From Struthio camelus (lineage: Eukaryota; Chordata; Aves; Struthioniformes; Struthionidae): 64,000 nucleotides of DNA. The position numbers and the translations under genes are program-made. The notes beneath the pieces are model-generated. The model did not search any database, was not told where the DNA came from, and worked only from the letters and a program-made list of their open reading frames with translations. Positions 10,697-53,701 of the stretch are shown piece after piece (the stretch's first letter is position 1; the number at the start of each line of letters is the position of its first letter). Location of the stretch: positions 3,488,001 through 3,552,000 of the forward strand of contig NC_090952.1 of assembly GCF_040807025.1 (NCBI RefSeq), given 5' to 3'.

Positions 10697-13600
10697 TCAG
10701 AGCCGAGTGTGGCTCTCAGAGATGTCATTAGTGGACTGCACTGGAACTGTCTCTTCTGAGATAGCCATGCCCACCCCATTGTGTACAGCATGGTTATGAT
10801 TCACATGCTCCTCCTGGCCTTTTGCAGTGACAGGGCCATTGTTGTGAACCAATGTGTATTTCTTCTGCACCTGCTCCAGTATCTGCAGCACCTGGAATTA
10901 GCAAACAGAGCTGTGAGTTGCTTACTGGTTAGGGGAAAGCACAAATTTCTTTTCCGGCTATTGAAAGATGCCTCGTTCTTTTTCACACTACCTGTCTGGG
11001 CCTCTCCTTGGGCTTACACTAAGCATTCCTGTCTGCTCAAAGGTCTCTGGGACAGGTGTAAAATGAAAGCCTGCTCCATGGAGATCCATGACCATGGATC
11101 TCAGACCTCTTTCCCTTAATGAATCAGTCTCACCTCACATGATCCTGAGGGATGTGCTTAGCACAGAGAGATGCAACGGTGGTCCATAGGCAGGATCAGG
11201 ACACAGGCAATGTGGAGATATGTTTTTCTGCTCTTTCACGCCACCCTATGATATCTCCTCACACTATCACAGATTTCTTCAGCTCCTCATGGAAAAAGTG
11301 AACCTGCTGTCTGATACTCGTTTAATGGAGATAGGAAAAGCAGAGAGAGAAGAAGAGCAGAAACAAATTCAAGATTAATTTTACCTGAGACTTTGGGATG
11401 ATTCCAACCCTGAAGAAACCTATGCTTCCACTGTTGATTTTGGTGCAATCCACAACGGTGGAGGCAATGTTCTCTGGAGAAGGCCCATCGCAAAGAACTG
11501 CATCCACCTTAAGAGAAGCAAACGTTCACACCAAGTTCCTTGTAGGCACTTGGGAAAAGAGATGGCCGTTTCCCTCTCTTAACAGCTGGTAATTATTACT
11601 ACCGACAGCTCTGCTTCTTCCTACCCTTGCTTTGTATTGTCCACTAACTACCTGCTGAATTTGACTGCGTAGTGGAATGAACGAACTTAGTAAAAGCAAA
11701 GAGAGAGCTCTTTATGTGGTGTAGATCACCAGCAGAGCTAGAAAGGTTTACATCAGCTGAGGAGCTTTGAGGAAGTCCCATTTAAGAAGCAAATGTGTAG
11801 AAAACTATATTTTTGCGGCGTTACAGGTAGATTGGCACTACCGCTTGTTTAAAGCTGCCCTCACATGAGCTGATATGAATATTATGTCCCACGCCCAGTA
11901 TTCTCAGTTTCAACAGTGGAAATGAATGACAGCCTTTTGAATGGCCATGACCATCATACTTCCAGAACTTACAAAAGCTGTAGAAGGCAGGAATATGTTA
12001 AAGCTTTGATGCTAGTTTAGACCAGCTTTAGCCTTAGATGGGAATCCCTAATGTTCAGACAACTCAGCGCCAGCTGGAGCTCTGTCACATTCAGGCATTG
12101 ATGGTTTTATTGCTTCTAAGCAAAGAAATATCTTTCTGCTGCTCATATCATTCTGTGGTGGAAGATGAACTAAGTCAAGCCAGGCCACAACTGTGCTGCA
12201 TAAAACACATGCATTTTGGCTTCCCATCAAGTTTCTTATTTTTACATCCTTCTTTCTCCTTAACTCTGACATCAACATAAGGCGTGTCAATGAGATTCTT
12301 TTAATTAGATGCTCCTCCAGATGCTTGATATCATTTATTGATTTGTCTACTTGGAACAAAGTGATTGCTTTCTTCTATCCCTCTCTCTCGGGACCAGCCT
12401 GAATGAAAACAAACATAACTTCAATTACCTTATCTCCTAGCTTAGCATACACTTGGTTGTGGTGTGTTGTATCTGCCTCTCCTGTTGGGTTAGCTGATGT
12501 GACCACAATGGGGCCAACCTGGTGACAGAAAAAGGGGAAAAAGAACTCTGAGTAGGCCTTGCTATATAACACAGATGACTTGCACTCTGAAGTTCACTGA
12601 TGAGTCTCCGTGACTATAAAGTGAACTCACTGTGACTCGCCCAGATAGAGACACCTACTCTGTAGGCAACTAAAGTTGGAAGAGATGAATCCTAGCAAAT
12701 CTGTGTAAGAGTGACTGAGACCCTGCTGAACTGGGGTATACTGACTTAGATCAAAAAGGAACTTTTTATTTTCAAGTGATAGTAATCATCAAAGAACTAC
12801 AGTGGTTGCCCTAGAAATGAAGTAGTGAGCAGGGACATTACCACAGGACTTGTAGGGTGCCATGCTTTCTCTAGCAAAGCCCAGAAATGCAGTGGTGGAC
12901 CACGGATCTGAACTGTGGGAGGAATGTGAATTTCTTCCTTTAAGGTGAATTTACTAGCAAGGCTATGGGGCTGTAACCATTGTTCATTGTCACGCATCTC
13001 CAACTCTTGAAGTCAGAGTAGTGGCCTGGCCATGCAATTCGTTCCACTCAGAGCACAGCTGCAACCAGCTGAGCCAGAGATCAGCTTTTTAAAGAGAAGA
13101 TTGTGCAAGAAAATTTTCTCTGTAAAGCAACACTACTCATCACGCTAGGCAGCATCATCAACGTGCTCGCATCCAGAGCTGTGTCAAGGTATCTTCGGGG
13201 CAGTGATCAGCTCTGCAGCAGAACATTTCCTATCACATTTTCTCTGCAGCTGCTCTGCCACTGTGCTACAGCCAATCACATATTGAGTTGCTGCTGCTGC
13301 CACGAGGTCATACAGCACAGTGCAGAAAGAGCTTTCTTCCAAGTAGGGATCAGAAGATCACATGGACAAGCCAGTGTGCCTGGCCCACAACGCTGTAACA
13401 TCCTTGAGGTTAGAGCAGTAGAGGCCAGACCTTACCCTCAGGTGTCTGTGCACCCTGAAATGTTTATGTGCTCACCCCTGCATTGTTCTAATACACATAC
13501 ATACTCTCCCAGGTTGTCACCCCAGCAGCTACTGCCTGGCTAAAGTCATGGAGCAGTGAGGCTTATAACACAGTAAACTGATGTTGTTCTACAAGCCACA

Positions 13601-16600
13601 TTTTGGACCTCCTCAAGTTATGCTGGCTTAAAATAAGCCTGTGCTTGCAACAGAAATGTTGAAGGTAGGAAATCATATGAAATATCTGTTAATTGCATCT
13701 TTTATGGCATTCTGACCTGAGGGTCTGTTTTCTTCCTTTTTACACTCCCTAGCTAATAAAACCAGCTACCAGCTGCCTGCATACCCCACTCCTTCCTAAT
13801 GAAAATTTTTGTTGAGGGAGCTAGTCATCTGAGCACTTTTCACTTCCCTGAGCTCTCTGACTATTCTAGGATCCTCATTTCAAAGAGGAAAGAAAAAAGA
13901 AAGGAGAGGTGACTTGCCAAGACCCAGCAAGAGGACTGGCTGAGTACTTCAGTCTCACCATCCTCCTCTGGGTGCTAGTGATTAACTCCAAGCCTGCCAC
14001 CTCGACAGTGGATTGGCAAGGTCTGGTCACCAGTGCTGCTGAGAGGAGTGTGCTCTGACCACTCACCAAGTCAATGAGGTGTGTGGTGACAGAGCAGTCA
14101 GGAATGCGGATGGCGATGCTCTGAGGGGTACCAACGTATTTTGCAGAGTCCTTCATTCCCAGGAAGTCCACCCATTCTCCTGCACAAGGAAGAGCCATAC
14201 ACTTACTGATACACATCAGTCCAGCCACAGTGATCTTACCAGGAATGTTGACATGGAGTACGTGGCACTGCGATGAAGTGCGGTTGTATTGGAGTTTCAA
14301 ATCCAGAGCTCTCCAGAGAGCTTGTAAGCAACAGCATTTCCTCACCTCTGGGAACCACCAAGCTAATAGGAGATGGCCAGGCAGCCTCCATGAAGTCCCA
14401 GAGGAGGGGGGTGAACAAATGCTTTGCAGGTTCCAGCTGCTTCAGGCTAGAAATCCAGAGTGACATGGGGCGCTCTTGCGCCTGGTGCTTGGAGCTAGAG
14501 TGGAAAAAAGAGACATGAACTTGGAAGTAAGCTAGGAATCATTATTTTTATTATTATTATTTATTATTATTATCTATATATATTATTTATATATATAAAT
14601 ACATTTATATATATTTACATAAATATTGTTATTGTTATTGTTATTGTTATTGTTATTATTATTATTATTTTCAAGCTGAAACAGAAACTGCGTTGGAGAG
14701 ACCCAGTGTTAGACAATACCTGTAGGCCCTGCCCCAGGTAAGCAGTCTCTGTAGTAAAAGCTGAACTGTCCAACAGATGACCTGACAGGAAAGGACATGG
14801 ATGTCGATTCCCAGTTATGGTTTTAACTCATCGTATCGTCATGGGTAGAAGTCAGAACTGCCCCAGTTCTGAGAAATACACACCAATCTGAGGGTGCAGA
14901 GGGTACAGAAGCGTAGCCAGACACATTTATTAAAATGGTCGGTACCTATAGGTAGGTACCCCGCCTCATTTTGTGGTCTGTAGACTTCCTTGTGATATCC
15001 ATCACCTGCCAATAGCCTTCAATACTCTAGGAGATAATTTCAGCTCAGCTGTTCCCTTTTCTCATTCAGATCTTCTCCCCAGGCGTGTCAGCTTATTCCT
15101 CTCAAGAAAGCTAAATTAAGTGTCATGTTGCTCTGGACAGTTGCTGTAGCCAGTACTCAGTAACAGCTGTAGGTCCCAGAGGCTTCCTTATACAACCCAG
15201 GGAAGCCCTCACTGGGGCAGTGAGAGAAATACTTACTGATGAGCTTTCTCCACAGCATCAGGTCTATTACAGGCTGCCACAAGCACATATACAGTATCTG
15301 TGGGGATGCCACAGGTCCCTCCATTCTTCAGGATATCTGTTGACATGTGAACAGGGCAGAATCCCTTGAGTGACTAAGACTGAGGGGCTGTAATTCACGG
15401 AAGAGCTGTCACAGACAAAACAGCCAATTCAGTGCTCTCATCTCTTTTTCCCAACTAACAAGTATTTCCTCTGAGTGCCTTTTAGCACTCACCCAAGAAG
15501 AGATCTCACATTTGGGGGAATTCTGAGCCATGTTCATCTGGGCCAGAAGTCATTCAACCCTCTGGAGAGAGGGAGCACCATTCATTTGCCCTGCTTTCTC
15601 TGTATGAAGCTCTCAGTGGTAGACCCAGCCTGGAGGATGCATGTGTCTTAGACTGGACGAGCAGACAGAGATATGATACAGGAGCTACAGCAACAAATTC
15701 ACTGCTAAACCCAGCTTCCGCCATGGAATTGGTCCTATTTTCCCCAGAGTGTGTTTCGGTTCTGATGCCTCCTGTAACTTGGCCTGCTTGGTCAAAATGT
15801 AATCAAATTATCATGGTGTCTACATTTGGATGTGAAAAATGTCCTTCTAATAATGTTCTGCTATAAAATCTCTCTGCGTTAACCCTCCACCCGCACACTA
15901 TCCCCTGTATATTTCCCTTACCTGCAATTCTCTTGACTGAGGAAGCTTTTCTGGCAGGAAGATGAAGGCACTTGTTCATTCCTCCCCCCACACCACTGAG
16001 CTGTACAATGGGCCTACCCATTGGTAAGCAGGAACCTTCAAAGATGCTATTGAAAAGGGCAGACAGGAAGCAGTAAAAGCTGACCAGACCAAAGATGAGG
16101 GTGGCAGCAATGTCATAGCCAGCTGGAACAGCACTGATGGCATCCAGCAAGAAGCTGATAGGGATGAGCAAGAAAGTGAGGGAGTAAAAGAACCAGGTGA
16201 TGTTTAAGAAGAGCGTGCAGAAGACAATGAAGCCATTGAAAAGCATGAAAGCAATGATGCCCACTGCTGTGTGGAAGCTTCTGGCAGTGCCATAGAGGCT
16301 GCCATATCTTGTCAAGCCCCAGATGATCCACATGACACCATAGAGAATGAAGGCGCTGCTCTCCAGGGTTTTACCCCGGGCAAAGGCTACTGAGCCAGCT
16401 AGAAGCTTAAGGATCCCACCAGCTACCACAACCCATGGAACTACAACAGTAGCAAGCGGAGCCTGCGGGTCCCCTGACATCATTATAGCAAAAGAAGCAA
16501 GGACACTGCATGCATAGCCAAGTACTTCAGCATCTGCATACTTGGAATAGCCTAGATAGGGAGCGTGAAGGTCTGCCCCTTCACGAAGCTTCAAAAAACT

Positions 16601-19600
16601 GCTGCGAGCAAGTAAGGCCTTCACAACGCTCTTCCCTGTCGGGATTTTGGCACCTTCTTTTGTATTGTACAGGTAAATTAGAGTCATCAAGGCTGAGGCC
16701 GCAAAGATGGCAACATCCATGCCTTGGGGTCCACTTTCAAGAAATCCCTTGGGACGACAAGCTAATGCAATGCAGTAAGCCACGTAAAACAGCAAATATA
16801 GGCCATCCATTGGGCTCTTAAGAGTGAGAAAAAGGGCCAAGACAGCAAAAAGAATTGCAAAAACCACCAGAAATGGAATAGGGAAAGATGGCTCCTCTGG
16901 CTGCCAGATTGGGTACAGAAGGCAATAGCCTCCAGCAAATTTCAGGATGGAAGTGAAACCAAAGAAGGTAGCCATCAGTGTATCCATTGCACGGTATGAT
17001 AAAATGCATACTCCAATCTGGTAGATCCCAGCAGCCCACAGCCAGGGCACCTGACCGATAAACAGTTTGCTAGTCACACCCAGGAGCCTACAGCCAAAGA
17101 CACTGGCAGACAGCATGTTCAGGATCAGGCCTGTATTTGCAAAATGATTCACGCTACCACTGGTGGACTTGATCTGTTCATGGGTCTTATTCGTGGCTAG
17201 ATCTGTGCCAGGAAGGACAATTTTCTCTTTGGTGAGCAAATAAAGAGTCCTTCCCAGAGCAAAATAACCTCCGACCAAACAGACAATCATGTAATTGCAA
17301 GCCACAGCAGAGGATCCAAAAGCTGTGTTATAGAGCATGGCAATTTCATGAGCACTTGCAAGTGAGACAGCGGAAGCAATCATAGCTAGGATGACCTCCC
17401 TATGAAGGAAGCCCACCACTGCAATAATGAGTAGTGCCAGAGTAAATGTGACCAGGCCAGGCACTGAGGCATTGCGGAAATCACCAGTGTCATTCAAAAC
17501 TCCTTGCCCTCCTAGGATGAAGACCACTCCATAGCTGCACCAGAACACTGAGATGGTCAGGCAGAGAGACAAGAACAGGGAGGCATTTCTTAGGCTTCTC
17601 CGAATTCCTAGGAAACAAACGACAAAGGAGACAGAATTGCGATTTTAAGACACAAGGTTAATGAAGGTAGTACTTAGGACATGCATTTGTGCTTATAGGC
17701 ACATAGCATGTGGGCACATGAAGCTGCACAGATCCTGCATGATGCCAGAGAGAGCTAGCACAAGATTGGGTAGGTCTGCATCATGCCCCATTACCCTGTG
17801 TAGACATGACCATAAAGGCTCCTTCAGAATAACGCTGTCCATTCATCAGAGTGCCTGGGGTGAGCTCAAGGTTCATGAGTTCCTTCAGCTTAATACAGTA
17901 CCAGGCCTGGCAAGCAGTCCGCCCTAATGAAGTCCATGTTCAGCAAGCCATTATCTTCTCTGCCTTGTGATCCCCACAAGACTCAACAATAACGACAATA
18001 ATATTTTAATACAGATCAAGTCCTGACACTACTTTACTTTAGGTTGCTAGTGGCTTGTTTTTTTCCAGCTGTAAGCTAGCAGGTCCAAGTATGTTTGTAC
18101 CACAGCTCTCAAACATCTTGCTGAATCTCCACAAATAACGGGCAGAGCCCGTTATTCCCTGAAGACAGGGGTATAGCAACTGCCAGACTCACTCTTTCTC
18201 AAGAACTATCCTGTGCAGTACCCTCATTCTGAAAATAACAAAGGCCTTGTTTTAAAAAACTTCAAGTTGAATGGAACCCAACTACTACTCCCAAACAATA
18301 CCGAAAAGTACCTTATTTTTACTGCTTCATTTTCTCACCTACGTGCATTCTGAATATACTAATAGTACAACTTCTAGCACAAATGTCTCTGGGACTTCCT
18401 ACATTTTCAGTAGGAACTTCTACACTATATCACTCAGGGAAATGCCTTGCATATTTCAGGATCACCTCAGTTATTAGGGGAACTTACAGATAGAAAGACT
18501 TGAAATTCTCATTCCAAACTGGAACTTTGCAATGGCTCTGTGCTTCATTTCTTCCTCAAACTAATATTGCCTTGTGGGCCACACTTATTTTGGGAAGGGA
18601 AGCAAGAGCTCTGCTGATGACCCCCCCAGGCTACTGGGGACTGTAAGCACTCAAGTATGAACCTCTGGGAACAAGGGAGCACAGAAATTCCTGCCTCTGC
18701 TAGGGGGCTGTTGAGTTCTGTGAGCCGTGAAGACATCACCTGCCCAATGGGCCATTCCACATGGCCCCATTAATACAGCTACTTCTAAGCATGTTCTACT
18801 AGTGTTTTGTGTCACCACTGACTGAGAAAGGAGGCAGACCTATGTTTTATGTGTTAAAGTAAGTATTGTTTCTCCCGAGTCCTCTGCTTTGTAGAGAAAA
18901 ATACCAGGACCAGTAGTGATAAGTTGCAGCATCAAAACTTGGAAGTTCATTTCCTCATTGCTCCGGGTAAAATAAGAGGAAACTTCAGCATTCGTTCTAA
19001 AGAGTGTGAACTTTGATATAATCAGTGACTTCCCTCTCCGCTAAGTAGATCCCTTGGAATTTGGACATGAATATGTTCTTTCAACCCATGCACACCTAAA
19101 CCACACCTTCAGAAAGCCTGGGAACAGTTTTTAGAGAAGTTATGCATCCACTCTGATGAAACTCTAAGAGATCTGAGAGTAAAGTCTTTGTTCAAAACTA
19201 ACATTTATTTTGGAGGTTGCATATACTGGAAAAATTTGGCGTATAGATATATTCCTATAGGAGGAGGTCTGCATCAGAGGTCTGGTAAGGCTGTCAAAGT
19301 TTACATAAACCTCTTGGCAAAGCAGATCTAATAGCTGTAAAGCTAAAGAAGGGAGGAGGCCTCAAAGCTGGCCGCGCTCCGAGTCTTACCTGCATATGCC
19401 AGAAGAGATGACAAAATCAACAGAAGGATTCCTAAAGCTGTGCTGGGGATCAGAGGGGCTGCTCTGCTTAAAGTGTAGAAGTGCACAGCCAGTAAGAGTG
19501 ATCCTGTGTGTGACAAGGGAGGCGGAAAAAGAGAAAGAGCTTTTAAATTTTCCTCCTAAAATAGGAGAAACCCAGAGTGGCAGGAACAGGGAAGAGAGAA

Positions 19601-20312
19601 AAAATAACCCTATGAGATCTACAAATAATAGGAGGGGAGGGGAGAAGAGGGGTGTTAGAGGTTTCCATGGTCTCACCTCTTCCTGGGTGCCTAGTTTTAA
19701 GAAACTTGAACTCAACCGTCTTTGAAACTGCTCCACCACTGTCAGATAAAGGTAAAATCAGCTCTCACATTCCAATTGCACAAAAGGCATACACACATGC
19801 ACACTCTACAGAGGATCATATAAGATTTTTGCTTACAGAAAACTAGCCCAGAAAAGGAAAAGAGGTAGCACTCAAAAAGAAGAAATGCGAAGAAGGAGCA
19901 AAAGAAAGGGGACTGAAAAAGGAAAACAGATCTGCAGGGAAGACAGCTAGAGAAAAGGAAAAGGGAGGAAAGTGCATCAAAAAAAAATCCTTTATGAAAA
20001 TGACTGTCACAAAGTTTTGATCTGCTTCCCACCCAGGACGGATCAAGTACAAGAGCTCAGGCCAGCACTTCAAAGCCAAGACAAATATGTTATTGGCTGC
20101 CGAAATAGGCAGAGGGATCTCTGGATCTAAAAGTTTTATCCAAGTAGAGAGACTCGGAATAAACAGACTCTCTAGCCCCCTTGGAAAGGAGGTTGTCCAT
20201 ACAAACTAGTCCCAACCCCATCCTCCCATGCCAAGAAGACTCGATCCCTACCTGCGGAAATGCCCAAGAGCCCTATGGAGTAATGAAGTGACTCAGCTTT
20301 TCTGACTGCCAT
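10697..20312 (-). CDS. triple AceTr/SatP-like membrane protein fused to a YrdC/Sua5-like domain
   Basis: Nine coding exons join in frame to 876 residues: 20312-20252, 19503-19390, 17607-15922, 15336-15237, 14494-14346, 14179-14067, 12518-12429, 11507-11385 and 10891-10697, all with GT-AG introns. Residues about 5-194, 211-384 and 416-590 are three hydrophobic modules of about six helices. Each resembles bacterial SatP/YaaH acetate-succinate transporters and ends in a short LPxG-like motif. The third keeps the family's central pattern (AGSVAFARGKTLESSAF, then YGVMW). Residues 621 to about 826 are a YrdC/Sua5 fold, with PTDTVY at 632-637 and TSANPTG at 748-754. True Sua5/YRDC enzymes make threonylcarbamoyl-AMP for tRNA t6A. 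Here the KxR motif reads KHQ (656-658), so that activity is doubtful. The last 50 residues are polar and His/Asn-rich. The start ATG lies 63 bp downstream of a TATA box. The protein is probably membrane-bound with a soluble YrdC tail; substrate and role are unknown. I dimly recall similar unnamed fish genes beside ES1-like genes, but cannot verify this. Confidence 0.88.
13866..13990 (+). repeat. MIR-like SINE remnant (intronic)
   Basis: The run of a purine-rich 'gaggaaa' block, then 'gaggtgacttgcca' and 'agcaagaggactgg', resembles the MIR core (gaggaaactgag...gtgacttgcccaag...agcta). It lies in intron 6 of the transporter/YrdC gene, antisense to it. The match is diverged and was judged by eye only. 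Confidence 0.35.
14535..14671. repeat. compound AT-rich microsatellite
   Basis: Three adjoining simple repeats: ATT/TTA triplets, then a TA-rich block (tatatat...), then a TTATTG/TTA hexamer-triplet tract. The array sits in intron 4 of the transporter/YrdC gene, starting about 40 bases upstream (on the minus strand) of the acceptor of the exon at 14494, in the branch-point zone. Its length is likely to vary between individuals. Confidence 0.9.
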
Positions 20313-23264: not shown

Positions 23265-23272
23265 TATAAAAG
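23265..23272 (+). promoter_or_regulatory. TATA box of the GATD3-like gene
   Basis: TATAAAAG lies 80 bases upstream of the start codon at 23345, placing transcription start near 23295 with a leader of about 50 bases. The ATG context (gaccATGG) is a good Kozak match. Confidence 0.7.
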
Positions 23273-23344
23273 GCTCCAGGCAGTGAAAAGAGAGGCACAG
23301 CAATTTGGGGCTCTCCAGGGAATCCTCCCACTCTGGTGGTGACC

Positions 23345-26300
23345 ATGGGAAAGAAAGTGGCTGTTGTGCTGGCTGGCTGCGGGGTGTACGATGGGAGTGA
23401 GATCCACGAGTCTTCTGCTGTGCTGGTGCATCTCAGCAGGGAGGGGGCACAGGTAAGAGGCACCCCGGCAGGCTGCTGCCCCATCTGTGACTCCTTTTGC
23501 TCTGCTCTGCTTTTTGCTCTCTCTTTCTTCTCTCTTGCAAAAGCTCCCTGTTGCTGCTGGGCTCACTGCAGAGCAAAAGCGATTCGAGTCAAAGGGAAGA
23601 GCACAGCATAGGAGCTGTCGAGTGAGCGTGGAGAACTCCCTGTCTATGCTTTGCTCTTACGGCTTTGCTCTACAAAGGGGTTGGCTGGGTGCTCCTTGCT
23701 GGGCGTACCCAAGCTCTGAAGCAAACATTCCTAAATGCATCCTGTATTCTTTTTGGCTGGCATTTCCTCTTTTCTGCTCTGGTGTTTCTGTTTAAAAGGC
23801 TATTACTGTTTTTGGCTTCTTCAAATACATCTTTTTAAAACCTAGAAGACTATAATAGAAGATAGATGAGTTCTTGTGAGTTAAACTGCAAAAGGATTGA
23901 AAAAGGCAAGCCTCAAGCAGCTGCTTAGCATGCAAATATTCACTATAGCCCTTCTGCAAGAGTGGAAGGGGAAGGAGAGAAGCTGTGCGTTACATGATCC
24001 TTAGCTCTGAGCCACCCACAAATCTGGGCCAGAGCTTTTCTCCTGGAAATTAGCGTTGCTCCACTGACTAAAAGGTGCAGTGGTGATCTGCATGCGCTGC
24101 AGAGCTAGCCGACCCAATTCCAAAGTCTTCCGAGTGTGTATTCTCAGTTTGGGTTAAAGGTGAGATGTGTCCAACCTCTTCTCCGCTGTCTGTATTTTTG
24201 TCTCTTTTCTTTTTCTCCTGGAGCTTCTGCAGTTGTTCCCCTCCTGCCTTACTTCAAATTGGCAGATTCATCCCTTGATTGGAGGGGACCTCTAGCGGAG
24301 GAAACTCAGGCATTTCCTCCCTCCCCCCGCCTTTTTTTTCATCCTATTTGCCTAAAGAAACAAAGCCTGCACAATCGCAAAATCCATCACTCAATCTGTC
24401 TGTTTGCCACTTCCCACCCTTAATTTCTGCATGCCAGCTTGAAGCCCTTCTGAAGGAAGGGGAAGCATTTTCAAGGTAATGAAATCCTCTGGGCTTTGGG
24501 AAAGCAGAGGCTGGAGGGAAGAAACTTAAATTACTGTCTTTGATGGAGGCACAGGGTTGGACAGCAGCTTGCTGGGCCATCAGCAGCCACAGGATGACTG
24601 GCCCATCAGCTCTCACGTCTTGACTGGCCAGTCAGCACCCAGCTGTAGACTGGCAAATCAGCCCACAAGTCCCCTCAGGTGCAATGCCCAGCTAGGCATA
24701 GGGCTGTGCTGTCCTTCGCTTGGTGGGGGGGAAAGCCAGGGCAGGGCTGGGGCTGTCACTGCAAAGGTGGTTGTTTGGGACACGGATGGCAACCTCTACG
24801 AAATGAGCTTCACGGATGGCTCTTGGAACACCTTAGTTTCTAGAAGAGGAAGGAGTGGCTGCCCCCCTCTCCCCAAATTCAGCCCCCCAAATAAGGAGTG
24901 TGGACTAGATTCTTCACTTTCGACTAATACCCTTGTCCCTGCAAAGTCAGTGCAAGTGCTCCCTGTGCAGAAGCTACTGCACAGTAATAACTTTCTCCTC
25001 CCAGTGACAGTAACCTTCCCCGTGCCAATGTCAGATACAGGTGAGCCTGAGGGTCAGTGTTCACCAGCCAAGCTAACAAAGGAACTCGAGCCCTTTTAAT
25101 TCACTATCTATGGCCTTGTAACAGTGCCTAGGATGCATGCTCAAAGAATAACAGGCCTTACCCTCTCTCCCCAGGCAGAAGTTTATGCTCCTGATGTGGA
25201 CCAGATGCATGTTGTGGACCATATGAAAGGACAACCAACTCAGGAGAAGCGCAATGTGCTAGTTGAAAGTGCCAGAATAGCCAGAGGCAACATCAAGGAT
25301 CTAGCTAAGCTGGATGTCAAGGGGCTGGATGCCCTAATTATACCAGGTAGGATGGCAAGTGGGGTCTGTAAGCCCAAGGTTTTAGGCTGGATGATCTCCA
25401 GAAGTCCTTTCCAACCTCAACTATTCTGTGATCTGGGGGAAGGGCTTAGAGTAATGCCAAGATCCTTGAGTGACATGGGATTTGTGCCCTGGAGAGGAAC
25501 TAGGTGGAACCACTGGGGAAGAGGACAGTCTGGAGGAAGGAAGGGATTGGAAGGATGGCCATCTTCCATCTGTGCTGGTGCTAGTTTGTTTGGTTGTTCT
25601 TGTGTCACAAGAACATGTAGCAATGGAGAAGCTTACTCCCAAGAGGAGAGGGCAGATAACTGTTGATTGACTTATTATCCTCTGTACCATGTACTTCACT
25701 TGTCTCTACTTGATGAAAGGACGTAACCGCAATATCCCCTCCTACACCAACACGCATACCACCACAGAATCACGGAATCACTACCCTCTTATTAGGAGAA
25801 GCTAGGACAGAGAGAGAGAGTGACTCAAAAGTGGAAAGCTTCATTGCTCTGGTAATTAGTCTTTGGTGAAACTATGGCCTAGTGACTTCAGTGTGGATGG
25901 ACTACCCCCGGAGCAAGGATTAAATGACAAGCAAAAACCTGTAAGCTTGCTCCACCATAATTCTGGACAGAAAAGCTCATAGGTGACACAGAGGGTAACA
26001 GAGCATTGATACCTCTCCAGCTCAGTTTTGTTTAGAAGCAACAAAGGTGCTTTGGAGTCTCATCTCCTCACAGTCAGGAATTGAAAAATATTCAGAGGCT
26101 CACAAAACTTTAGTTTGTATATTTTAGCTCTTTTGTCAACATTGGACAAATGTTTCCATCCACCAAATCCATTTTAGCATTCTACTGGGTCAATTCTGAC
26201 ATAAAAATTCTGCCCTTGAGTACTCATCTTCCTGTCTCATCCATTTCCCTTTTCTCAGGTGGCTTTGGAGTGGCTAAAAACCTGAGTACTTGGGCCACCC

Positions 26301-27308
26301 AAGGGAAGAACTGCATAGTCTCCAAAGAGGTGGAAGACATACTGAAGGCATTCCATGCTGCCAAAAAGCCCATTGGCTTGTGCTGCATTTCCCCAGTGCT
26401 GGCAGCCAAAATCTTCCCAGGCTGTGAGCTGACTGTGGGTCATGACACAGAATGTGAGAAGTAAGTAATCCCGAAGTGCTTATACAAAAATCTCATCTTG
26501 AACATTGCATGATCACATCCCTCCCCAATGTATGCAGCACCTGGTCTCATGTTCCTCTTGGTCCCAGGGTAGGAAAGACGTCAGACCATTGTCTTATGAA
26601 GTCAAGCAGGTGCTGGGCAGGATCTTGGTTGCACAACACTTGGTATGAGAGGGAGGGGTTTGAACTGCCCTTACTCATCCATGAAAGCTGTGACTGAGTT
26701 CTTCCAGGGGTAGGAAAGGATATACAGGTTCTTGCTGTTTAGCTGGGAAGTAAGCTCATTTGTAGAAAGCTGCTGAAGAAACCAAGTGCAAATGCGAAGT
26801 CTGGAGTGGGGCAGGGTTAAGTAGGGAATGTCTATAGCTTTGCATCAAGGTCTTATTTTGGCTTTACTTAGGATTTGTAACTTACTGTAATCTGGAGGTT
26901 TTCCTGCTTAGTTCTATAGCTCCTGAGAAATTCCTCTGACAAAAAAAGGCTTGGATCCTATTGAGCTGGCTTTCTGTAGGGACTATTTATTTCTCTGTAG
27001 TAGCCTTGGAGTTGTTGCCATGAGGCATTCGCAGGCTTTTCACCCTAGGCCTCTGTCGGATCTTTCTCTGCAATAACAGCTTCTCCACACAGTGTTTATT
27101 CTCTTATTCTTGTAGATGGCCTTATGCAAAGACTGCTGAGACCATGAAGGAACTCGGTTGCAAGCATGTGAATAAACATGTCACTGAGATTCACGTGGAT
27201 GTGAAGAACAAACTGGTGACCACCAGTGCCTTCATGTGTAATGCCCCCATTCATGAGATCTATGATGGTATTGGAAAAATGGTCAAAGAAGTGGTCAGAC
27301 TTGCCTGA
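23345..27308 (+). CDS. GATD3: GATD3/ES1-like DJ-1/PfpI superfamily protein
   Basis: Four exons (23345-23452, 25175-25346, 26259-26460, 27116-27308) join in frame to 224 residues with GT-AG junctions. The protein starts [20 protein letters not shown] and closely matches vertebrate ES1/C21orf33 (GATD3): APDVxQMHVxDHxKGQP, [13 protein letters not shown], the nucleophile-elbow region [15 protein letters not shown], and WPYAKTAE. The family has the class I glutamine-amidotransferase-like (DJ-1/PfpI) fold; its physiological reaction is poorly defined. Human GATD3 has an N-terminal mitochondrial leader of about 40 residues. Here the first coding exon opens directly at the conserved core, so this product is probably cytosolic, perhaps a separate paralogue (GATD3-like). 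The gene is divergent from the transporter/YrdC gene, with its own TATA box 80 bp upstream. I am sure of the family but less sure whether it is the GATD3 orthologue or a paralogue. Confidence 0.93.
25383..25434 (+). repeat. CR1 LINE 3'-end fragment
   Basis: About 50 bases match the CR1 3' end (GGATGATCTCCAGAAGTCC, then TTCCAACCTC and ATTCTGTGATC). It begins less than 40 bases after the donor of GATD3-like exon 2, inside intron 2. Confidence 0.75.
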
Positions 27309-33100: not shown

Positions 33101-34276
33101 TTATGCTTACTGCCTGTCGCTTGTGTTTGACTACAGTAATTCAAGTTCCAGGTGCAACTATGGTCACAAAGCAACGGTGTCATTCCTCCCAGCCTCAGGG
33201 GATCCCCGATTCTGACATGGCTTCCTCACATCGTACAAATACACCCCTAAGAGCGGCAGGCCGAAAGGCACACTTCAAGTGCAGCGATTTCTGCTGTCCC
33301 TTGTAAAGCCTGTTAGAGGGTAGGGAGTTTAGACAACTTTGCCTGCATGTCCTATAGCAAGTTGACGTTCCCCCGAACCTCCTGGGGAAGGGGGCTGCTG
33401 CGAAGAAAGACAGGGCAGGAGACTCCCGGCATTTCTTCCGCAGCACGACAAAAGAAGGACCTGAAACACCCTACTGAGCTGGGCTGAGTTAGGACCGGCA
33501 GCTAGGAGATGACAAGCTCTACACCCTGCTATAAATTCCCAGCGCAGGCACAACACCACTGCAATAATATCAATTTCCGTCTGTGACAAGGGTAGCTAAG
33601 GACGCGCTGCGCACCTGCGCCCTGTTTTAGGATCGTCTAAATGACGTCTACACGGAGCTAACTTGGAGCAGAGGTTAACGTTAGCCTGGCGCACAGATGA
33701 AAGCGTGACTCAGCAGCACGGCAGGCAAGTGGGGGATCTCTAGGTATGTGGCTGGCGGTCCTTGCTCCTGCCCGGATTTTCTTCTGGCAGAGAGGCAAGA
33801 AGCAAGGCGGCCGCGCGGGGCTGCGCGGCGGGGCCGCGCCTGGAGTCCCCGCTCCGCCGAGCTCAGACGCTGCCCGCTTCGCTTCCCGCCGCCCTGGCAG
33901 CGCTGCTCCGCCAACGCGCGGCATTTTCAGGTTCTTGCCTTCAGGTCCTTGACGTCTATTTGTCCCGAGCCATCAGGGTCGAGCAAGTCAAAGGCTTCTC
34001 GCAGCTGCTGCTTCTGCCCTTCGCCGAGGGGGGCGGCGGCCGGGGCTCCGCTGCCCGGCGACTGCGCCTCCGCCGCGGCCCTCGCGCTGCCGACGCCTTC
34101 CGCGGAGCCGCGCCGCTGCGGGACGGACCGCCGCGGGGCTCGCACCGGAAGGCAGGGCCGCACCCGGCCCCCCCTCCGCCTCCCGCCTCCCCCCCCACCC
34201 CGGCTGCCCGCCCCGCTCCCCTCAGACACGCCTGGGACGGGAGCGGGGCGACCAGCCCGGCCGCGGCTCTCACCAT
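30155..34276 (-). CDS. divergent centrin paralogue (CETN2-like)
   Basis: Five coding exons (34276-34274, 34115-33939, 32198-32070, 30691-30554, 30241-30155) join in frame to 177 residues with four EF-hands. Centrins are calmodulin-like Ca2+-binding proteins of centrioles and basal bodies. The match to CETN2 is clear ([66 protein letters not shown]). Exon 1 codes only for Met, and every intron is phase 0 at the CETN2 positions. Oddities: an Ala/Gly/Ser-rich N terminus in place of the basic CETN2 one; loop position 12 is Asp, Ser and Lys in EF1-EF3, and only EF4 keeps Glu; the C terminus reads LMLTDP instead of KKTSLY. The donor after DVKDLK is GC (AAG|GCAAGA) rather than GT. The frame is open throughout, so it is probably functional. 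It sits in tandem just downstream of CETN2. Confidence 0.85.
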
Positions 34277-34680
34277 CCCGCCGCCGCCGCCGCCGCGCCA
34301 CGCGGCGCCATGGCAACCAGGCCTCTCATTGGCTGGCGCTCCTGCTCCTCAGGAGGAAGCCGCGCGCCGATTGGCCGAGGCGCTCGCTCGCTCCCGCCCT
34401 CCGCGGCCACCGTTGCCGCCCCGCGGCGAGGGCGATCCCGCCGCCCGTTTTCCCGTCGTGGCCGGGCGCCGTCCGCAGCTACCGGCCTCGAGCGGCCCGC
34501 GGCCTTCGCCTCCCCGCGTCCTGACGGGCAGGATCCTCCCCGCTCCCGGCGTCCTTCCTGCCGCCGCGATCTTCCCCTTCGCTTCTCTGGGCCCCCTGCT
34601 TCTCTCCCAGGTCCCGCTGTTCGGGAACCCCTCCTTGCGCCACCACCTCTTCCCTCTCCCACATCTGTTCATCGGGGAAC
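33780..34680. promoter_or_regulatory. CpG island over the centrin-paralogue promoter
   Basis: A dense GC/CpG block covers exons 1-2 of the centrin paralogue and several hundred bases upstream. Inverted CCAAT motifs (ATTGG on +) lie at 34328-34332 and 34370-34374. Open frames across it on both strands are Arg/Pro/Ala-rich and reflect base composition only. I could not identify a partner gene on the plus strand. Confidence 0.75.
34304..34317 (-). promoter_or_regulatory. RFX X-box-like motif, centrin paralogue
   Basis: The minus strand reads GTTGCCATGGCGCC, 28 bases upstream of the start codon. The first half-site is a perfect GTNRCC, and the second (GGCGCC) has two mismatches to RGYAAC. X-boxes drive ciliary and centriolar genes through RFX factors. 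Confidence 0.5.
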
Positions 34681-46900: not shown

Positions 46901-49900
46901 AGCTGACCAAGCGTTTTCTGAAGCACTGAATCAGTTCTGTGAGAGATGGTTGCTTATGTAGCAGGTATCCTGAAATCATTTTGCAGGTTGTTAAAGCATG
47001 TGTGTGCTTTAACACACATATGTCCTCCCCCTCACCTTTCCCAGTGAAGTCAGTGACTCTAAAGTTTTCTGTAGAACCCTCTTCTAGAACATTAAAATAA
47101 ATATATCTGAGGCCTGCTTGGAGCTGACAGGAACAGAACTTATTCCTGTATTAGGATTTCTATTACTGTGAGCTCAGTTATACAGTCTAATAACTATCAC
47201 TATTGGTGATTGCATGTGGGTGCTCTCTTAGCTCACCTCAGCTGTATGAGAATGACAGAACGCATTATTTTATTTTTCATAGTTAAGGCAGACTAAGACC
47301 TCTTGGACAGTTATGCCTTAACTCAGTCATACATACGAGCCTTGGCAAAAATATTTGTATGCAATATGAGGAGATGCATCCCCACTAATATGAGGTATCA
47401 CGTCTCAGAATTTTATGACAGTCATCTCGAAAACAGACAGTGCCATGGGGTGCTGTTGATGTTAAACCTGCTGTGTGCTGAGTTTTCTAACTCCTGTCTC
47501 CAGGTAATCTTGAATCTCATACCTGAACTTGAGATGCCTGCAAATAGCTGTCTAGATAGCCTCCAGGTCTCAGTGTTCCCAGGTTCCTCTCTGTAAGAAA
47601 AAGATGTGGTGCTTTTTTGCCTAGCAAGAAGGATAGGACACTGTGCAGACTAGAGTGGCTGATCGCATTTCTGCTGCTCACCTTTATGGAAGGAACATGA
47701 CCTGAAATTTGAATGAGAAAAAGAACTGTACTGTGTTTTTTATCCTTCCTTCTCTTGTAGTAGACACTGTTCTTACTGTTTCATTGCTGTCTTGTAATGT
47801 CTGTTTTCTAGGCCTTGCTCCCAGCTTTACAAGGTGTGTCAGTGGCATTTCATTGTGCATCACCAGCACCTTCAAGTGACAACAGAGAACTGTTTTATAA
47901 GGTGAATTTTATGGGAACCAAAACAGTCATTGAAGCCTGCAAAGAAGCTGGAGTCCCGGTAAGGGCAGAAAAGTGCTTGGGGAGTATAAGATGCTGATGT
48001 GACTTTATAACTTTTGAACTGTGGTCCAAATTCAGTCTGGTTTGATAGCAAGGCAAAGCTTTCTGAGATGATGAATTCCTATTTGTTTCATGCAATTAAG
48101 TAGAAGAGAGAAGACTCTGTTGCTGTCCCACTGAGAGAGTCTGATGTAAGCTCAGTCCCTGCTGGTCACGGAAAACCTACACATCACAATTTCCTTGACT
48201 GCAAGAAAAGCATCCATTAGAATCTGTCATACTAGACACCTGGGAGTTCTCCCAAGGGAGAACGACTGACAGATGGACTCTTTCATGCTTTTAGTAAAAG
48301 GCCAACTCTAAACATAGTTTTTTTCTGCAGTGGACGTATTCATGGCATCTATTACCTACGTTTTTTTTTTTCTTGCATGATATTGTTATTGTAAAGATGA
48401 ACAAATGTGTCTTAAAAGCACTCACAGTGCGTTAAGTATTAAAATGTGCCAAGTCAAGTGGGCCCTCTGTTTTCCTTGGAGATGTTTTCCTATTGACTGG
48501 TTACACTGGAAGCTTGTTGAAATGTATACTTTATCTGCTTCTGAAGTGTTTTACTACTTTGATAAGATTTCTTGCTCTTTCAGGCAACAGTTGTGCTTTC
48601 ATCTGCTTTAGGCAGCAGTAACAATGTGACGAAATCAATTGAGAATGTGAGAGTTTTTGTACCTGCAGTTTCAGATGTTCTGTTAAACCATGTCCAGAAG
48701 AACATGGCTCATTCTCTGTAGAATCAGTTCATTAAACACTATGACTGTCTTTACTCACACTCTGTACACAACGATCCTTTTGTCTTAAGTTTCAAACAAC
48801 TGTTTTCTTTCACATCTGCTGCAGAAACTGGTGTTAACTAGCAGTGCCAGTGTTGTTTTTGAGGGCACAGACATAAAAAATGGAACAGAAGACCTCCCTT
48901 ATGCAAAAAAGCCTATTGACTATTACACAGAAACGAAGATCCTACAGGAGAAGGTATTTGTCATCATAGGTTTAACACTATTACTCTTAATAATAAGGTT
49001 ATTGTAAGGACAGAAGAATTGCCCTTCCTGAAGTAGGGCATGCCCTGGGGGACCCAACAGGCTGCCACAGGTGGCTGCCACTTCCATCTTTAACAAGTGA
49101 CCTCCAAGCTTTTGCCTAAGCACGCTGATGGAGCAATACAGGGGATGCTTTCCTAGCAGCTGTCAGTGTTGTTCCAGTCCAAAGACATAAATGCTCAGTT
49201 TTGTCTTCCTCCACTGGTGAAACTCTAAGCAATGTTTTTACCTGATAAAAAGAGAATAAAATAAAACTGTGACATCAATTACTTGGAGAGTTGACTGAAA
49301 CAGTGTGATACACTGTGCGGGGGTCTGTTTCTGGACAAAGAAGAAAAGAATTGGCAGAGGGGTCTTAAAACACCTGCTTAAATCACCAAGCCATGGCATA
49401 ATGCCCGTTATGAACTGATCCAGCTTTACTTTAAGAGCAATTGGGGGCAATATTTTGCCCTCTCTGCTCCTACTGGAAGGCTGTCTCATAATGACATTTA
49501 CCTGATTTGCAGCCTGAAGTTACTAATGGCAGTGGACATGTCCTTCTTTGGGGATTGTCAACAGGTTACTGGGGAAGGACAAGATGAGATGGAGATGGAC
49601 AGAATTAAGGAGCACGCCAGCTTAATAACATGTTGTCAGCTCATTCTTTTGGCCATATACTGAAAATATTCTTGTTAAAAGTATTAAAAAAAAACTCCCG
49701 TACGTCTGAATGTTCACTACTTTGGACATCTGCAGCTCACCAGTATCCGTTCTGCTTTTAGAGTATTAATGCTGCAGTATTTGTGGTTTAAATATGCTAT
49801 GCCAATGTTTTAAATCAAAGAAAACAATTTTTTTTTTCCAAACATTTTTCAATTGTTTGCATTTTAACTGTGGAAAGAACTTATTTGTGTAAGAAGAATT

Positions 49901-52900: not shown

Positions 52901-53701
52901 ATGTGAATATACTTTAACTTCATTCTATAAAACTTCTTGTGAGAGGAAATCCAGGCAAAATTCTTGGCACCCTTAAGAAACGCAGTTACTTAGCTCTTGC
53001 AATGCAGTTCTGAACAGTAGAAATGTTTATAGATTTTCATAGTACCGCTGTGCTCTAGGCATGCACAATATGTACAGCCAGGATGCTTTAGCCTGTTTGC
53101 ATTGTATTGTATCGTTCAGTTTGACCATTTATGAATAATCTAAGGTCCAGAATGTCAGGAGCAGCCAGCTTTCTTAGCAAAGAAGGGGTTCGTCACTTTT
53201 CACATAGAGGTTATTGGTGCAAATCAGTTTCTCGTGGAAACATCTTCGCAGTCAAGTCTGGGATATCAGTTTCATCAGCTTGAACATGAGTTGGGCCAGC
53301 ATAGAAATGAGTTTGTGCAACAGTAATGTTTTTATCATCTGGCTTTCTGTCTTCCTCTCTTCCAGGCATTTCATATCACAAATGATGAACCTGTTCCTTT
53401 CTGGGCATTCATGTCCCGTATTTTGACTGGCTTGAACTACGATGCACCCAAGTACCAGATCCCCTATTGGCTGGCATATTACCTTGCCCTCTTCCTTTCT
53501 CTTGTGCTGTTGCTGCTAAGTCCACTGGTCACCATCAAGCCCACTTTTACCCCTATGCGGGTAGCATTAGCTGGAACTTTTCACTACTACAGCTGTGAAC
53601 GGGCCAAAAGAGACATGGGCTACAAGCCAGTGGTGAGCTTGGATGAAGCAATAGAGAGGACTCTGCAGAGCTACCCCCATCTACGCCGGGCTAAGGCCTG
53701 A
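43937..53701 (+). CDS. NSDHL: sterol-4-alpha-carboxylate 3-dehydrogenase, decarboxylating
   Basis: Coding exons 43937-43957, 46667-46828, 47812-47958, 48825-48953, 50764-50906, 52563-52665 and 53366-53701 join in frame to 346 residues. NSDHL removes the C4 carboxyl group during cholesterol synthesis (with MSMO1 and HSD17B7), at the ER and lipid droplets, using NAD(P)+. Visible features are the nucleotide-binding GxxGxxG (VIGGSGFLG, residues 14-22), [10 protein letters not shown] (115-124), the catalytic YxxxK (Tyr144-Lys148), [11 protein letters not shown], a membrane segment at about 268-290 ([15 protein letters not shown]), and the conserved end [14 protein letters not shown]. The first coding exon begins at an acceptor-flanked exon (from 43902), and an in-frame TGA lies directly before the ATG (ctc TGA gaa ATG). 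That fixes a short N terminus (MATRLRP before the core), about 27 residues shorter than human. Exon 1 must be non-coding, in the shared CpG island. Confidence 0.96.
44628..44760. repeat. AT-rich palindromic tandem repeat (NSDHL intron)
   Basis: Two diverged copies of an AT-rich unit of about 47-49 bases sharing ATTATCATTAG(A/G)ATATGATAT and TTAGGATAT. It contains a perfect inverted repeat, TCATATCCTAAT at 44679-44690 and ATTAGGATATGA at 44695-44706, with a four-base loop, so it could extrude as a cruciform. Confidence 0.85.
45100..45755 (+). repeat. old CR1 LINE fragment (NSDHL intron)
   Basis: Diverged CR1 of the older amniote type. The + strand shows CTGTGTACAGTTCTGGTATT, ACGCTTGAGGAGAGGCTAGA, a block like TGGAATTTGCTGACGCACAA, then GTCAAAAAGGAGTCAG, AAGTACATGGAGG and finally GACCAGATGGACCAGTGG. 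Edges are approximate. It is much older than the CR1 copy in CETN2 intron 4. Confidence 0.75.
51828..51857. repeat. 15-bp exact tandem duplication
   Basis: GTGCTATAAAGACCT occurs twice back to back in an NSDHL intron. Confidence 0.9.
52475..52499. repeat. poly(T) tract
   Basis: A run of 25 T, starting 88 bases upstream of the NSDHL exon at 52563. I saw no SINE body next to it. Confidence 0.9.

Follow-up and report, generated by a model that had tools for sequence, protein, structure and literature searches.

A putative carboxylate-channel-like protein of the ostrich with three AceTr-like modules and a YrdC domain of altered KxR motif

What could three membrane modules resembling a microbial acetate transporter do in a single vertebrate polypeptide that ends in the fold of threonylcarbamoyl-AMP (TC-AMP) synthases? 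This question is raised by a gene in the window, by which we mean the whole 64,000-nucleotide stretch of the Struthio camelus genome analysed here (C11:3488001-3552000; assembly of 1.45 Gb in 262 contigs). On the minus strand of the window (20312..10697), nine predicted exons, once joined, give an open frame of 2631 nt, corresponding to 876 residues and a stop, and all eight introns have a GT donor and an AG acceptor (Table 1). Because the match to PF01300 continues without interruption across exons 4-8 (residues 622-797), and that to PF01184 extends over residues 415-572, the splice frame is not due to chance. The nine-exon model of 876 residues, which had been proposed in the first-pass annotation, is thus borne out by the exon joining, the splice signals and the domain matches across the joints. 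In a 19-residue hydropathy scan, hydrophobic stretches were found all along residues 17-573 and, beyond these, only once, at 741. Scans for tRNAs and RNA families gave no match.

Table 1. Features of the fusion gene (positions in the window) and YrdC matches elsewhere in the genome (positions on contigs)
Feature	Position	Strand	Content
Exon 1	20252..20312	-	start codon, residues 1-20, beginning of module 1
Exon 2	19390..19503	-	residues 21-58, module 1
Exon 3	15922..17607	-	1686 bp; remainder of module 1, modules 2 and 3 in full, linker to YrdC
Module 2	16598..17170	-	residues 205-395, inside exon 3
PF01184 (Gpr1/Fun34/YaaH) match, module 3	16067..16543	-	residues 415-572
Exon 4	15237..15336	-	beginning of YrdC domain, PTDT motif
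Exon 5	14346..14494	-	YrdC; degenerate KxR (K656-H657-Q658)
Codon CAG, Gln658	14482..14484	-	aligned with catalytic Arg of KxR motif
Exon 6	14067..14179	-	YrdC
Exon 7	12429..12518	-	YrdC; TSAN (SxN motif) retained
Exon 8	11385..11507	-	YrdC; STVVD and FFRVG retained
Exon 9	10697..10891	-	C-terminal tail, stop
PF01300 matches, second locus	C11:3482266-3484760	+	profile search, three matches
YRDC-like gene	C23:11106117-11107244	-	locus L097; KGR, TSAN, STVVD, IIRPG

A second, full fusion gene lies to the left of the window on the plus strand (C11:3476627-3485748; loci L095 and L096). The two genes stand tail to tail, with some 13 kb between their coding ends (3485748 and 3498697). In the paralogue, nine exons were joined in frame to 843 residues; a tenth exon of 93 bp would likely supply helix 4 of module 3, and without it the paralogue matches PF01300 with 119 bits and PF01184 with 37.6 bits. 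That two separate genes, one for a transporter and one for YrdC, had been fused by chance in the gene prediction is hardly credible: while the joint between exons 3 and 4 is held solely by splice signals and phase, the paralogue has the identical domain order in frame, and a vertebrate family of about 900 residues is on record (PMC13316224).

The existence of this family also means that the novelty implied in the first-pass annotation for a fusion of three modules with YrdC does not hold. PMC13316224 (iScience, 22 June 2026), the only paper within the open-licence literature searched to contain both Pfam accessions, describes, in the parts available to us, vertebrate Atos of about 900 residues with three Gpr1/Fun34/YaaH domains and, in nearly all of them, a C-terminal Sua5/YciO/YrdC domain; they form two clades and occur in all major lineages but mammals. 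The three domains are seen in AlphaFold models, in which a fish protein of the family has a TM-score of 0.82 to SatP, and, as told in the same paper, earlier surveys had found AceTr carboxylate transporters in microbes, with animals excluded. The product of the window gene has the family architecture, that is, about 900 residues with transporter domain(s) followed by PF01300. By description, it is like fusions such as A0A3B3D9A3 (Oryzias melastigma) in size, domain order and occurrence in non-mammalian vertebrates, and the two neighbouring ostrich genes may correspond to the two published clades. The available parts of PMC13316224 contain no description of the YrdC catalytic residues, of the state of the NPAPLGL motif in vertebrate modules or of the tail-to-tail pair.

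A genome search with PF01184 (E ≤0.001) gave one match, module 3 of the window gene; as the paralogue escaped this search, one is a minimum number. PF01300 (E ≤10) yielded nine matches, three each in the window gene and the second locus, two on contig C23 and one on C9, of which the C9 match is weak, and it and both C23 matches span a stop codon. Since the search was six-frame and ignored introns, small exons can escape it. The YRDC-like gene on C23, whose motifs were read piecewise from unassembled exons, serves as a control for the fused copies.

How firmly can the membrane part be assigned to the AceTr family? The proposed PF01184 similarity of each module is confirmed for module 3, which as a separate query scores 28.9 bits (cut-off 25), and fails for modules 1 and 2 of the window gene, which as separate queries gave no PF01184 match. 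The whole 876-residue protein scores 23.5 bits over residues 415-572, slightly under the cut-off, and 20.6 bits, against a cut-off of 50, with NF038013, the AceTr_1 acetate uptake transporter equivalog. In the paralogue, module 1 matches PF01184 with 38.9 bits and module 3 with 15.0 bits, below the cut-off, while module 2 as a separate query has no Pfam match. We paired each module of the window gene with its counterpart in the paralogue and ran the pairs in hhalign against a profile built from eight AceTr proteins of bacteria. This profile is not deep, since SatP of E. coli and its close relatives accounts for five of the eight members. The pairs of modules 1 and 3 reached 65% (E 6e-5) and 97% (E 6e-11), and that of module 2, weakly, 33% (E 4.5e-4), all E-values being for one comparison; values stayed at 0.1-0.2% with the profile reversed and did not exceed 1.2% in 30 column shuffles. 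The AceTr-like nature of all three modules is thus supported against shuffled and reversed controls, for module 2 weakly. An Acetoanaerobium AceTr protein also matched module 2 of the paralogue in tblastn (E 4.9e-10) with composition adjustment off, a setting that flatters membrane proteins.

Among themselves, the modules are only weakly alike (hhalign 0.3%, 17.5% and 7.1%), and the triplication therefore rests on the similarity of each module to bacterial AceTr proteins. In pairwise comparisons, the similarity of module 1 was reached by 10 of 300 composition shuffles against SatP, by 124 against module 2 and by 41 against module 3; the corresponding counts were 3/300 for module 2 with SatP, 1/300 for module 2 with module 3, and 0/300 for module 3 with SatP. 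A match of module 1 to bacteriorhodopsin (16.1 bits, cut-off 24.6) was sub-threshold and is regarded as chance. As anticipated for the ends of the modules (near 190, 381 and 586), LPxG-like motifs are present as LPG at 190, IPTG at 380 and LPMG at 586. At least three such sites occur in 257 of 2000 shuffles of the same composition, so that the count by itself is not unusual, and the position at the module ends is the sole informative aspect; E. coli SatP likewise has LPIG close to its C-terminus. As a side observation on the bacterial relatives, tblastn of SatP against plasmids returned 171 records, 141 of them from Salmonella, and retrieved three more distant copies, and in a scan of genome contigs the best 80 of 574 relatives were all 81-100% identical to SatP.

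With E. coli SatP/AceTr (PF01184; 5zug, 5ys3), the window protein shares a putative six-helix module, the profile match of module 3 and the LP(x)G-like end, but it has three modules per chain and a fused enzyme domain, and lacks NPAPLGL, the AceTr signature motif (PMC13316224, in part). This motif is retained in none of the three modules: module 3 has DAEVLGY in its place, and in the other two it is unrecognisable. Of the SY[F]GFW motif of AceTr, a part survives as LYGVMW in module 3. Transport may therefore be altered or absent. Taken further, the loss of the pore motifs from all modules would leave the membrane part as an anchor or scaffold that has ceased to transport, with only YrdC mattering, a reading that is also in keeping with the membrane identity of just 21-29% between the two copies (54/188, 39/188 and 35/152 for modules 1, 2 and 3). 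Against it, module length and the LPxG-like C-terminal ends are recognisable in both copies, and module 3 has YGxxW; we judge it distinctly improbable.

The YrdC domain that had been placed after the transporter modules is evident at the C-terminus, where residues 622-797 match PF01300 with 113.7 bits (E 8.9e-33, cut-off 25.1). Its closest solved structures are TC-AMP synthases (9d3h, E 4.4e-16; 6f87, E 2e-13), and a second (SUA5) domain is absent among the Pfam matches of the window protein. ATP and threonine are bound by K56xR58/S143xN145 together with T33, S181 and R195, all of which are needed in yeast Sua5, according to the available parts of PMC10321239. We mapped these residues through an alignment with chain 6f87, assuming that the printed numbering is one below that of PMC10321239. 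Six of the seven, T33, K56, S143, N145, S181 and R195, are retained in the window gene, while the equivalent of R58 is glutamine, turning KxR into KHQ; the KxR/SxN tetrad of active TC-AMP synthases is accordingly incomplete, with SxN intact. KxR is intact elsewhere, as KDR in the paralogue, KGR in the ostrich's own YRDC and KQR in E. coli TsaC. As a single residue of a single assembly, Gln658 could reflect a polymorphism, and if the ancestral codon were CGG, its change to CAG would be a CpG transition. Around the motif, the Pro after KxR is Ala, the N62 position (Lys in several TsaC) is Arg, and H67 is Trp. Further on, Thr precedes SAN, which is described as TsaC-specific, with Pro in Sua5 (PMC10321239, in part). 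Where the three reference rows share PGP, the window gene has PSP and the paralogue PGG; the two fused copies also have V or A in place of the G that follows TVY. In common with the TsaC/YRDC/Sua5 synthases (PF01300), the window gene has the whole domain, SxN, PTxT, STVVD and the late Arg; in contrast to them, it has KHQ for KxR and a membrane tether, and it shares with the paralogue a longer loop preceding the VGT segment. The paralogue retains all seven substrate residues, with K-D-R, TSAN, STVV and the late Arg.

Do the fused domains then still catalyse? Authors of the family's description proposed that the fused domain may carry out a Sua5-like reaction, and the idea of coupling to transport is likewise found in PMC13316224, in the parts available to us: YrdC would use threonine, bicarbonate and ATP to form TC-AMP or a carbamoyl-adenylate akin to it, while the modules supply or remove carboxylate or bicarbonate, so that import is coupled to assimilation. 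The six of seven substrate residues in the window gene and the seven of seven in the paralogue speak for such a tethered enzyme, as does the stronger conservation of YrdC (101/207 identical residues between the copies) relative to the membrane part, which suggests that YrdC is the more constrained of the two. KHQ in the window gene, the PSP/PGG and V/A replacements in the fused copies and the score of 99.1 bits, short of the cut-off of 123.2, with TIGR00057, the L-threonylcarbamoyladenylate synthase equivalog, point the other way, and we consider an active enzyme possible, if rather unlikely.

On balance, we favour with moderate confidence the reading of the window gene as a vertebrate member of the Ato/AceTr-Sua5 family that encodes a putative carboxylate-channel-like protein, with YrdC as a regulatory ligand-binding domain. 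Its single chain would consist of three six-helix SatP-like modules followed by a YrdC domain on the cytosolic side, the latter as suggested by family knowledge and the even number of helices per module. SatP is a hexamer and an anion channel (PMC8471396, in part), and the three modules would represent half of a SatP-type six-unit ring, in line with the Ato dimer forming a six-domain ring that is proposed in the available parts of PMC13316224. Through this ring, small carboxylate anions such as acetate would pass the membrane. As all but one of the seven substrate residues are intact, YrdC of the window copy would still bind nucleotide and/or threonine, yet it would be inefficient at making TC-AMP because KxR is changed to KHQ; binding without efficient turnover would thus let it act as a ligand-sensing regulatory domain, and the t6A task would fall to the separate canonical YRDC gene.

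The window also contains exons of other genes. At 26114-26461 (+), we find an exon of an ES1/GATD3-like gene (5lir, sigma cross-reacting protein 27A, E 1.3e-14), and frames resembling it, as judged by eye, at 23270-25666. An EF-hand exon at 33930-34325 (-) is closest to centrin (3qrx, E 7.4e-13; centrin-2 chains from E 8.3e-11) and, judging by these matches, probably belongs to CETN2; in a Pfam search of ten other ORFs of the window, only this EF-hand scored above its cut-off. An NSDHL-like exon lies at 48789-49001 (+) (6jkg, sterol-4-alpha-carboxylate 3-dehydrogenase, E 2.1e-21), and what we named by eye as the last exon of this gene, at 53330-53701 (+), gave no match when searched. CETN2 and NSDHL are neighbours at human Xq28, and this site could be the place where the fusion genes were lost in mammals.

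A separate observation comes from a catshark transcript annotated as Yrdc, XM_038776212.1, for which the available parts of PMC13188829 give TPM values of 47 for vertebrae, 37 for Meckel's cartilage, 17 for denticles and 6 for chondrocranium, against 0-1 for spinal cord, the dental lamina and vertebrae of embryos, and which its authors put aside for low embryonic expression. Such a pattern, mainly of mineralised skeletal tissues, seems odd for a housekeeping YRDC, and the transcript may instead represent the fusion gene.

A bolder reading, which we hold to be quite a long shot, takes the two neighbouring genes as the two halves of a heteromeric six-module ring, in which an enzymatic YrdC with the full tetrad would be joined by a binding-only YrdC with broken KxR in a gated carboxylate/bicarbonate channel that was lost in mammals. 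If true, this ring would be a channel that is read out by a couple of enzyme and pseudo-enzyme. The gene pair, with the catalytic arginine in one copy and without it in the other, offers a clean functional comparison, and the fusion of three AceTr units with a threonine/ATP-binding fold in non-mammalian vertebrates points to a new means by which small carboxylates are sensed or handled.
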